A DNA stretch of 64,000 nt from Hysterium pulicare CBS 123377. Taxonomy: Eukaryota > Ascomycota > Dothideomycetes > Hysteriales > Hysteriaceae. The translations under genes and the position numbers were made by a program. The notes under the pieces are model-generated. The model saw only the letters and a list, made by a program, of their open reading frames with translations, made no database searches and was not told where the DNA came from. Where the stretch lies: the NCBI GenBank assembly GCA_000467715.1, contig AJFK01000008.1, forward strand, positions 83,043 to 147,042, written 5' to 3'. Shown here piece by piece: positions 8,046-63,100 of the stretch; positions within the stretch are counted from its first letter, which is position 1, and every line of letters begins with the position of its first letter.

Positions 8046-10593
<2,548 letters not shown>

Positions 10594-11045
10594 GATCAAA
10601 AGGTTTCAGTAGGGACCGGTCAAGAACAAATAATGTCCGAGGGAGTGTCTTCGCTGTTCGGGTGAGGAAAGAAAATCTGTAGTGCAGACAAATGATGGCT
10701 GTCTTGCGCAGGCAGAGTGAGGACAAACAAGTGGAAGAGAAAGGGAGTCGTTGTTTTGGTTGATGAAATGAAGGGAGGTGAGAGGCAGAAGTCAAAGAAA
10801 GTGCGACGAGGAGGCAAAGTCCAAATAATTTTCAGCGCCAAGCCGCTAACAAAATCCGGTCCAGACACGCTAGGCCTATTCCATCGGAGCAACGCCGGCT
10901 CTTCACCGCGACACGAAATATATCAATATATCGACTGCATTGTGGGAGCCTCACTATAATTATGACGGGTACCTTTGACGGCTCTACTATCTTTTTCTAT
11001 TCTTTTATTCACCGCTTTCGCTATTTCACCATGTCCCTCCACTGC
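10594..11045. promoter_or_regulatory. DBP2 promoter / THI20 3' region
   Basis: A 452-bp spacer between two tandem minus-strand genes. It must hold the THI20 terminator and the DBP2 promoter. The stretch before the DBP2 ATG is rich in C/T on the coding strand, as is common in fungal leaders. No other element is evident. Confidence 0.5.
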
Positions 11046-59910: not shown

Positions 59911-59911
59911 C

Positions 59912-59918
59912 TATATAA
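59912..59918 (+). promoter_or_regulatory. TATA box of U6 snRNA gene
   Basis: TATATAA lies about 31 bp before the inferred U6 start at G59943, the spacing seen in yeast SNR6 and vertebrate U6 promoters, where TFIIIB contacts TATA. Confidence 0.75.
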
Positions 59919-59942
59919 TTTATATTATTTTCCAGTTTCTTC

Positions 59943-60152
59943 GCCTTCGGGCATCAGGTCAATTTGAAACGATACAGAGAAGATTAGCATGGCCCCTGCA
60001 CTAAGGATGACACGCTCAGTGAGGACCCTCCATCACTCCATTCAATATAGAGTATCCTAACCTCATACTAGATCAAAGAGTAAGATTACATTGATGAAAT
60101 TATTCTCAAACTGATTTTACTAATCACGTGCATTAGGAAGCTACAAGTTTTT
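59943..60152 (+). ncRNA. U6 spliceosomal RNA, apparently with two introns
   Basis: Bases 59943-60018 match U6: a 5' stem GCC-TTCG-GGC, GGTCAATTTGAAACGATACAG, the catalytic ACAGAGA (59974-59980), AGATTAGCATGG, CCCCTGCACTAAGGATGACA and ACGCTCA. The usual tail (yeast ...ACAAAGAGA then T-run) is not next. Instead there are GTGAGG...CCTAAC...CTAG (60019-60071, 53 nt), then ATCAAAGA (60072-60079), then GTAAGA...ACTAATC...TTAG (60080-60136, 57 nt), then GAAGCTACAAG and TTTTT (60148-60152). Removing both gives a 100-nt RNA whose tail (ATCAAAGA-GAAGCTACAAG-T5) aligns well with the yeast tail in sequence and length. The 5' end is set from the TATA distance and may move by a few bases. The core is certain; the two-intron model is strong inference. 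Confidence 0.9.
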
Positions 60153-60163: not shown

Positions 60164-63100
60164 ACTTCGAGATCTTATTTCTACCAATTTTTTTTTTGGG
60201 GAATTTAAAAACTGTACAAGCAAGCATCACATATTCAAAACTTACGTATAAACTCACACATGTCATCAATCAAGGCAATCTGAAATGCATCTTTGTTGCC
60301 CACTGATTCTGCACTGGCGCCTACATAACGCTCAGAAAATTCAAAATCTCTGGATGACCACGCGCGCCGAAAACAACAGCTTGTCGCAGACGAGATTTGA
60401 CCACAATAACGACGCATTTCTACTTATATTGGTGCTGTGGGGTGTGAAGGGTGGACTTGACGCGAGAGTTCCTGATGAGTCCCTACATTTTATTGGCAAG
60501 GGACAGTCCCTCTCACTCGAAGATCAATTCTTGCCGCGGAGGAGGCCTAACCTCCAACTCCTCGATGCCTTAGGTGGACGACATATAGGGCATGTCATAC
60601 GAGGAATCCATATCTGGTATGCCCTGCGCATGATCAAGATTTCCTCTGAGGCTGACATTATAGATAACAGGTCGTGTGGTATGATACAATTAGAACTTTC
60701 GTGACAAGCCGGACCTCCTTCGGTAACGTCCTTGCCTGCGGCGTAATCGTTTCTACAATCACAAGCCAAACTCGACGACTTCTAGACGATGGTTATATTC
60801 TGACAGCGAAACTTCAAGCATTGGCCGATGACCCTATTATACCCTCGAAGCGATGCGCTATCACAGCGGAACTTGATTGGGACTCGGGTTGGGGATAGCT
60901 ACACACACCTCGCCTCACGTCAGCGTTGATGGGATTGCGTTGGACATAATCGGAAAGCGATGGCTTGGAAGTGTAATGCTGCTGGCTACGTCGGATTATG
61001 AGTAATGGCCCTGTTTCCCTTTTCGCAGAGCGTGCACCAACAGCGGCGAATTGTACCTCGAGAACTTCGCAACCGTGGGCTTGAATCGTATCATTAATCG
61101 AGAAGGATCAAAGGACTACCCAGAATAAGCCAATTCAGAGGAAGACCACAGCGCGCTCATACAACTCTCACAAAACTGTTTAATCAGTTCTTCAATCTCT
61201 AGCATGTGGCGCTGTACTTCAAGATGGACCGCGAAAAGGAACAAGTCAATGCTCCCAGCAGCAACAACATATGTCCATATTACATATCTTTTACACCTAC
61301 TCTAATGGAAGAATGGAAAAAGTCTTAACATCCACCCGATTACGCTATTCGTAGTCACCTCAATTCGGGTAAAGCTTTTTGGCATAGAAACACTGTTACT
61401 TTCCATACCCATACTGATGGCAAAGCAGACAATCACAAAGGACGCTTACGAGCACTACAACGACGAATTAAAACTCAGCAAGGATTTTCTGCAGCTGCCC
61501 TGCCGCAGGATTCTACAGACCGAAGGTCACATCCACACTCTATATTTCTGAGCCGACAGAGGGAGTCGGAAGCGCGATACCGGCAGAGAAGAGGGCGGGA
61601 AAGGACAAAGAGCTGGAGGGGGGAGAGCGCATGCACCAGGCAATGCAAATCGACCGCTGTATCGGGCTGTCTTTAAGCTGTATGTGTAGGAAAGGGTGAC
61701 TGGCACACACAATTGCATTATTTCTGGATGACGAAGTCTAGGCAAAGGCTCCTTGGGACGAGAGCGTCGCGCAGCTTGACATGGAAGAGAGACAAAAGTC
61801 GCGAGGCTTGTGAAGGGAAGATGAGAGGGGACAGCTGGGGCTACCACTTCAAGCAGCGAGGAACTTCGTGGCCGTCAATTTAAAGGGAAGACGCGGCCAG
61901 GAAGCTATTTAATCCTCTGGACACGAGGAACCGAAGGTCACGGTCAAGCCGACAGTATTTCCTCTGTGCGACAGTAACATGTAATACAGATTTCAAGCCA
62001 GGTAAGGGTTATTACGGTACATCGATATGTTGAAATTACTGCGCCTACAAGCCGGTGCACGAGTACGATTTCAGGGCGTTGCAGGCTCCATGGCCACTCT
62101 TGACGAAGTGGGAAGCACATTGAGGAACGGGTGATGGGAAACGAGAGGTAGTAGACTCCGCAAGCTTCTTTTATGGGAGGCCTGAGAGGGGGTCATTGAT
62201 TTGTGCAGCCAGCTATGCAGCCAGCTATCGAGCCCAGGAGTTCCCATCCACAGCAACCACAACATTCGTCCAGCTACTATGCTGCTGACTTGCAGGAGAA
62301 AGTCCCATTCAACAATCAGTAAAGAAATGGCTCCTCATTCTTCTTCTCTTTCTCCCTTTCGGCAGACCTACAGTATTCTGCTTTGCTTCCTTTAGAGAAC
62401 CTCTCTGGTTCTCACAATAACTAATGCGGTCTACTATCTTCTCCCCTTTTGTATCTACCGAAAGGTTGACTTTAGTTACAGGCGCCTTGACCTCTCCTTC
62501 TCCAATCGCCTCCGCTTCTCTTATTTAGACTTTAAAGGAACACCTTGAGCTTCATTCCGCATTGCCTTTTCTTGCTGTAAGGCAGCGGCCAGGGATACGT
62601 TTGAGCCTCTTTCAGCGATTGGCGCACCTCGGAGGTATAGAGTTCCGACAAAACCTCCACGTCAGCAGCGTGTAATCGTGCAGAAATGCACGAGCGCACT
62701 TCCCTTGAATTGGATCCTCTGGGAGTGGAATAGCTCTGCTACCTGCAGATGGACGGTACGATTCACGCACATGATCTCAAGATCCCGGGGATGCAAGCCA
62801 CCTCCATCGGTGCCAGTAAACCATACATAGTACGTCGTCAAGTCGGTGGGCTTTTCTCCCGGATTCGGGCAATAGCAGGTCAATCGCGTTCTGTACGATT
62901 TCATTTGAGAAGAGTCCTTGGGATGATCCACGACTGTCAAATAGCCGTCCGGTAAAAGATAGCGTCTGGATGAAAACCCGCATATCCCTTCAATGTTTTG
63001 AGTTCTCCGTCCACCAACATAGCGAAGCTTCGTTTTAGGGCAAGGACTTCAGAATCTCGTAATCTCTCAGCAGGATACAATGACTTTCGACTCCAGCTGG

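Follow-up and report, generated by a model that had tools for sequence, protein, structure and literature searches.

Anatomy of the U6 locus

The 64-kb stretch of Hysterium pulicare CBS 123377 DNA analysed here (hereafter the window) contains a gene for the U6 small nuclear RNA (snRNA), the 3' tail of which appears to be interrupted by two short introns of the spliceosomal type. In the covariance search that a preliminary description of the locus had proposed, the unspliced gene matched RF00026 at 59943-60041 (72.2 bits against a gathering threshold of 44, E = 2.5e-16, model positions 1-105), and it was the only structured RNA above its gathering threshold in the Rfam scan of the window. The fit to the model is strong to about 60014 and then gives way to sequence that does not resemble U6, with the U6-like core ending at 60018.

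All parts of the gene lie on the forward strand. A TATA box, CTATATAATT, occupies 59911-59920, from 32 to 23 nucleotides (nt) upstream of the first U6 base. Exon 1 (59943-60018), delimited by the Rfam match, includes the 5' hairpin, the ACAGAGA box, the AGC triad and the internal stem-loop, which folds, and ends in ACACGCTCA. It is followed by intron 1 (60019-60071, 53 nt, GTGAGG...TCCTAAC...TACTAG), an 8-nt exon 2, ATCAAAGA (60072-60079), which holds the first half of the strand that would pair with U2, intron 2 (60080-60136, 57 nt, GTAAGA...TACTAAT...CATTAG) and exon 3, GAAGCTACAAG (60137-60147), with the second half of that strand. The T5 at 60148-60152 is presumed to be the 3' oligo-U and terminator, and a longer T run lies downstream. 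The branch site of intron 1 is CCTAAC at 60056-60061, its A being 11 nt from the intron end, and that of intron 2 is ACTAATC at 60119-60125, with the A at 13 nt; the acceptor is TAG in both. Each insert thus has the GT donor, the CTRAY branch site, the AG acceptor and the host-like size of a spliceosomal (U2-type) intron. The core of this copy is intact and it is not evidently a pseudogene.

Comparison with the other U6 copies

Five U6 loci score above the Rfam cut-off in the 37.2-Mb assembly (596 contigs): the window copy, L001, L002, L003 and L005. Unspliced, the window copy reaches 72.2 bits, as against 81.9 for L001 and 78.6 for L002, and L005 scores just 54. The tails of the other four loci are all uninterrupted (TTGCTATCAAAGATGAGCTTAAAGA, TACTATCAAAGATGAGCTACAAA, TGACTATCAAAGAGAAGCATATTCA and TGACTATGAAAGATGAGCAAAAAAGATCC in L001, L002, L003 and L005, respectively). 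The sequence of exon 2, ATCAAAGA, is found contiguous in the tails of L001, L002 and L003, and L005 has ATGAAAGA; across the junction of exons 2 and 3, the L003 tail reads ATCAAAGAGAAGC, an exact match, and the L002 tail ends in GAGCTACAAA.

These tails were used to rank the possible outcomes of splicing in the window copy. With zero, one or two excisions, GT or GC donors, AG acceptors and introns of 40-120 nt, and with tails shorter than 10 nt dropped before ranking, there were 24 candidate outcomes, and removal of exactly the 53- and 57-nt segments ranked first of the 24 against each of the four paralog tails. When tails were shuffled in a way meant to preserve dinucleotides, the score of the observed best excision was equalled by 0 of 300 shuffles for L001 and by 1 of 300 for each of L002 and L003, the three paralogs for which shuffles were run, L005 being left out. 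Moreover, strictly defined intron-like units (45-70 nt, GTRAG...CTAAY...AG) are sparse in the window, with 14 distinct donors on both strands (128,000 bases, 0.11 per kb), and two of these 14 adjoin within the 140-nt U6 tail. A scan with a looser motif found no intron in any of eight uninterrupted snRNA genes (the four other U6 copies, U5 L020, U4 L018, U2 L016 and U1 L063).

Since four other U6 copies are without introns, the window gene is not the sole U6 gene of this genome. The preliminary description would have taken the locus for a pseudogene if a second, intronless copy were the only one expressed; of the two parts of this argument the DNA bears out the first, intronless copies being present. 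The reading that follows from it, that the window gene is a non-functional copy with acquired insertions and that L001 and/or L002 supply U6, draws on the fact that both of these copies have the TATA box, end in a T run, carry a tail complementary to U2 and score higher with Rfam when unspliced. In L002, moreover, a U-A pair close to the foot of the internal stem-loop has become C-G, a compensatory change that favours this reading; because of this change the other U6 copies were not treated as dead, and the idea that all of them are was dropped, L001-L003 retaining both the stem-loop and the U2-pairing tail. However, the window copy itself has an intact core, has retained its TATA box and shows complete splice signals in both inserts, and its tail, once spliced, pairs with U2 with undiminished strength. 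Introns also occur in the five U2 copies that resemble one another, so in this genome the presence of an intron is no sign that a copy is dead. We therefore consider a non-functional window gene improbable. Among the intronless copies, L003 (L003:1480-1610) has an intact core but lacks the usual 5' hairpin and the TATA box.

Pairing of the tail with U2 and U4

After splicing, five U2 genes of the genome start with AGCTCTCTTTGCC, their exact 5' end being assumed. The doubly spliced window tail is predicted to form 11 base pairs (bp) with this U2 end, with one bulged A and an energy of -13.3 kcal/mol, in the manner of U2/U6 helix II. With intron 2 retained, the pairing is different and broken (-8.7 kcal/mol), and removal of intron 2 restores the 11-bp helix. 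The same kind of U2 helix was obtained for L001 (-12.7), L002 (-13.3) and L003 (-12.5), the three paralogs for which it was computed, the bulge in L001 and L002 being at a different base from that of the window copy. In stem II, pairing of U6 with U4 gave -14.6 with the spliced U4 L019 and -10.4 with U4 L018. In its score, its U2-pairing tail with an oligo-U end and its stem II pairing with U4, the window gene has the features of an RF00026 member.

The predicted pairing also bears on whether the 8-nt exon is used at all, since donor 60019 and acceptor 60136 both have good signals and could be joined to remove a single 118-nt intron (60019-60136). Micro-exons are hard to recognise, which would favour such skipping. 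Skipping, however, would cost helix II its CAAAGA half (-8.6 versus -13.3 kcal/mol), a separate branch site is present in each of the 53- and 57-nt units, and the 24 outcomes included single excisions as long as 120 nt, none of which was in the best four for any paralog. Skipping of this exon is thus highly improbable, and the paralog tails, the splice signals and the U2 pairing together bear out two introns flanking an 8-nt exon, the arrangement given with correct coordinates and motifs in the preliminary description.

Promoter and terminator signals

The TATA box of the window copy recurs as the same motif at the same distance in L001 and L002 and is absent from that place in L003 and L005. 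The four other U6 copies have a run of T5-T8 at 92-98 nt from the 5' end, and within the introns of the window gene the longest T run is 4, with no T5 before 60148. The gene therefore combines an upstream TATA box (59911) and a T-run terminator (60148) with no earlier T5, as in genes of the RNA polymerase III (Pol III) type. Synthesis by Pol III, stated outright in the preliminary description, is better worded as probable, from a TATA box placed as in two other U6 copies and from the terminal T run.

A B box was sought with a consensus that we take to be GGTTCGANTCC-like. The best match in the window copy is a weak word, ACTTCGAGATC (60164-60174, forward strand), 3' of the terminator, which agrees at 6 of 10 positions and is not above background. 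Downstream matches reach 8 of 10 in L001, 7 in L002 and 8 in L005, those of L001 (+110) and L002 (+106) being GGTTCGAG words past the T run; words with at least 7 of 10 positions occur 1.3 times per 400 nt and so are not rare.

From the anatomy of the gene, the comparison with paralogs, the predicted pairing and the homology between introns described below, all in the DNA of one genome, we infer how the gene is transcribed and spliced and how its introns may have arisen. It is very probable that the locus is a genuine U6 gene, that its primary transcript, for which Pol III is the likely polymerase, contains two short introns of the ordinary spliceosomal kind, and that the gene represents one case of a genome-wide state of introns in snRNA genes.

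Some results weigh against this reading. At junction 1 the window tail, when spliced, differs from the paralogs by an added CA (CTCA-ATC versus CT-ATC), and an alternative GC donor located five bases upstream, at 60014, trails by just 1 to 1.5 alignment points; because of the added CA, the boundary at this junction rests on the splice signals and on those 1 to 1.5 points. Retention of intron 1 with removal of intron 2 also gives a helix II of -13.3 kcal/mol, so that helix II argues for intron 2 alone. The genome also has U6 copies free of introns, and L001 and L002 among them share the TATA box of the window gene. Introns of Schizosaccharomyces U6 genes contain a B box; a B box inside a U6 intron was rejected here, the best intronic word matching 5 of 10 positions, and in this the window introns differ from those of Schizosaccharomyces.

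Introns in the other snRNA genes

Altogether 17 introns were recognised in structured RNA genes of the genome, with boundaries chosen by eye from paralogs and motifs: 16 are spread over eight sites in U1, U2, U4 and U6, and U3 contributes the remaining one, which makes nine sites together. They share a common format, with lengths of 50-77 nt, GT-AG ends in 16 and GC-AG in one, CTAAY in 16 and CTGAT in one, and a branch A that lies 9-20 nt before the end of the intron.

Seven matches to U2 were obtained, of which five (L011-L015) have introns, one (L016) is uninterrupted and one (L017) is a sub-threshold fragment. Once spliced, L011-L015 are 89-100% identical to each other; L016 is 72-74% identical to the other copies. 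Their introns fall at three sites: A (AGCTCT/CTTTG, on the helix II strand) in L011 and L015, B (GGCTTAG/ATCAAG) in L012, L013 and L014, and C (GTGTAGT/ATCTG, within the branch-site-recognition sequence) in L015.

For U1, the covariance model and BLAST together gave seven loci, both covariance matches being below the Rfam cut-off. One intron lies within the 5'-splice-site-recognition sequence (ATACTT/ACCT, or ATACTC/ACCT in L022) of L022, L060, L061 and L062, and a second immediately before the Sm site of L060, L061 and L062. U1 L063 is uninterrupted at both places, which fixes the positions of both introns. Two loci were counted neither as intron-bearing nor as good intronless copies: L021 (L021:1470-1640, 43.7 bits, below the cut-off), a variant or decayed gene with an atypical apparent 5' end that lacks ATACTTACC, and L059, which looks decayed. 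On contig C15, the degraded-looking pieces of U2 (L017) and U1 (L059) lie about 1 kb apart.

One of the two U4 matches (L019) is interrupted by an intron of 58 nt close to the 5' end, at CACG/GGCATAC, and the other (L018) has none; the spliced intron-bearing U4 pairs better with the U6 copies than the intronless L018 does. The single U5 match (L020) has no intron, and the single U3 match has one. The signal recognition particle (SRP) and RNase MRP RNAs gave one match each. The one intron candidate that the loose scan returned in the SRP RNA was taken as chance, this RNA aligning along the entire Rfam model without such an insertion. The RNase MRP RNA match (L057:1501-1978) spans 478 nt against a model of 266 positions and has long insertions, in which the loose scan found no intron signals. 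RNase P was not found in the genome search.

Seven of the eight sites in U1, U2, U4 and U6 lie in pairing regions (binomial 1.2e-4, an illustrative figure only, as the region sizes were set post hoc), and we take most of the nine sites, that of U3 included in the count, to fall within segments that base-pair with the substrate or another snRNA. The 3' flanks of U1, U2 and U4 copies (L011-L015, L019, L021 and L022) share a loosely similar motif seen by eye, roughly TCATTG...GAAGAAGA, which may be a signal for processing of the 3' end.

Among protein-coding genes of the window, spliced alignment of DBP2 and HIR3 gave proposed introns that include short ones of 55, 49 and 55 nt, and only those of 49-55 nt were taken as the size reference for the U6 inserts. 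The DBP2 RNA helicase gene (8400-10900, reverse strand) has five proposed introns, three of them long (209-223 nt) and one of these with a poor donor; of two introns proposed for HIR3, one is probably an alignment gap and was not used. The best named match of DBP2 is from Lepidopterella palustris (96% identity over 96% of the query) and HIR3 is 69% identical to proteins of L. palustris, Zopfia rhizophila and Glonium stellatum, so that the best named matches of both are from Dothideomycetes.

Resemblance between introns and their possible origin

After removal of their introns, which lie at different positions, the U2 genes L011 and L012 yield one and the same mature RNA of 187 nt, and the identity of their exons fixes the boundaries of those introns. 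The two introns are not recognisably related (z score 3.2, 5 of 300 shuffles, within background). A close relationship does exist between the intron at site B of L013 and that at site C of L015, two sites 12 nt apart: they share 35 identities over 41 columns (z 12.9, 0 of 300 shuffles). The comparison covered 16 of the 17 introns (120 pairs), leaving out the second U1 intron of L061, which is identical to that of L060.

Similarity is also found between introns at the same site, 8 of 11 such pairs being among the top 25 of the 120, while the other three involve the first intron of L061. Part of the pattern is thus inheritance through gene duplication. Several different-site pairs also reach z 4-6 (5.7 for U2 site C with a U1 intron, 5.1 for a U1 intron with that of U3), which counts among the results that weigh against the reading given above; values in this range mean little, since the branch-site word common to the introns is lost in the shuffles, and the 4.1 between intron 2 of U6 and the intron of U4 is equally uninformative. 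Only the strongest resemblances were used, and they suggest that introns have been moving among the spliceosome's own RNAs.

Searches for a source outside these genes gave little. Used as a query against the genome, the two U6 introns with the 8-nt exon had no match but themselves with E values of 1 or below, a result that does not prove rarity, and the U2 intron of L013 matched L013 and L012 only, its L015 homologue emerging by alignment. As the intron queries matched no other genes, they identified no coding-gene donor. An exact scan of viral and genome contig collections with a U6 core word returned no stretch; that with a U2 word returned 19 genome-contig and 10 viral-contig stretches, and none of the 29 continues as U2 sequence.

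The pattern may instead reflect old introns that were lost from other copies through cDNA of the mature RNA, and not gained by reverse splicing. Conversion by a mature-U2 cDNA could explain the identical exons of L011 and L012 with their different introns, and the ranking of same-site pairs fits descent from older introns. On the other hand, loss alone, without sliding, cannot place homologous introns 12 nt apart, as in L013 and L015. We regard loss as the whole origin as rather unlikely, though it is compatible with two introns in a functional U6 gene. The most likely origin, judging from the DNA, would be occasional reverse splicing into spliceosomal RNAs followed by copying into DNA: excised introns would now and then reverse-splice into RNAs held at the active site of the spliceosome and then be copied back into the genome, which would explain why many sites fall in pairing regions. 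Losses by way of cDNA made from the mature RNAs have probably played a part as well.

Discussion

Taken alone, the U6 gene of the window fits a kind already known in fungi. Tani and Ohshima (1991) reportedly described mRNA-type introns in the U6 genes of Rhodosporidium dacryoidum and Rhodotorula hasegawae, with up to four in R. dacryoidum, and Canzler et al. (2016), going by their title, are said to have found that introns were inserted into fungal U6 genes several times in evolution. The introns of Rhodosporidium and Rhodotorula are of the mRNA type, as those described here, but belong to another phylum, the basidiomycetes. In view of such multi-intron genes, the suggestion in the preliminary description that two introns in one U6 gene would be unusual is weakened.

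The best known case is the U6 gene of Schizosaccharomyces pombe, which according to passages of one paper has an mRNA-type intron near the catalytic nucleotides, with reverse splicing proposed as its origin, and whose intron-containing RNA is bound by Lsm2-8, splicing being placed after 3'-end processing (PMC10484740). Both genes are Pol III-type U6 genes with spliceosomal introns; S. pombe has one, whereas the window gene has two, in the tail. An mRNA-type intron is also known from a U2 gene of R. hasegawae (Takahashi et al. 1993, by its title, in PMC2586383); by comparison, H. pulicare has introns in five U2 copies at three positions, and others in U1 and U4. Sections of a 2017 paper describe fungal U3 small nucleolar RNA genes with GT-AG introns and RCTRAC branch sites, report that some genomes mix intron-bearing and intronless copies, that a U3 intron is usual in Pezizomycotina and that its position varies in Dothideomycetes, and name U3 and U6 as the only small structured RNAs so far known to be often interrupted (PMC5832005). 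U3 is thus likewise a small structured RNA with intron-bearing and intronless copies, but it is no part of the spliceosome. Similar introns at different places in fungal coding genes were taken as intron movement by Torriani et al. (2011), as excerpted in PMC3488318; here the resemblance is among paralogs of one spliceosomal RNA. Among the matches listed in a search of the open literature by titles and abstract openings, with subscription journals outside its coverage, none reported an interrupted U1 or U4 gene, or a genome with introns in most of its U2 copies. It is therefore the presence of introns in several snRNAs that would be new, if not already described.

The precursor of the window gene, if transcribed by Pol III, would be spliced by spliceosomes assembled around pre-existing U6, a product of this copy and the others. 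Removal of both introns would yield an ordinary U6, about 100 nt long and ending in ACACGCUCA-AUCAAAGA-GAAGCUACAAG-U(n), and this tail would form helix II with the 5' end of U2, intron 2 interrupting that strand.

The birth of spliceosomal introns is an old open question, for which reverse splicing into RNA situated in the active site of the spliceosome has been offered in the case of the S. pombe U6 intron (PMC10484740). If four of the five spliceosomal snRNAs are truly interrupted at several sites, with paralogs whose different introns leave the same RNA, H. pulicare would offer a natural record for dating intron gain, loss and movement. Introns are found in five similar U2 genes, in four of seven U1 loci, in one of two U4 genes and in the window U6 gene, several of them in splice-site-recognition or catalytic-core sequences. 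We put forward only tentatively, as an idea somewhat more doubtful than not, that the spliceosome has here become dependent on its own activity, with excised introns that keep reverse-splicing into its RNAs and become fixed through cDNA, so that one mature U2 would come from genes with different introns at different positions. There is also a start-up problem, as U1 genes with an intron in the 5'-splice-site-recognition sequence and a U2 gene with one in the branch-site-recognition sequence would require working U1 and U2. With U6 as well as U1, U2 and U4 cut by introns, the spliceosome seems to rely on splicing the RNAs of which it is itself made.
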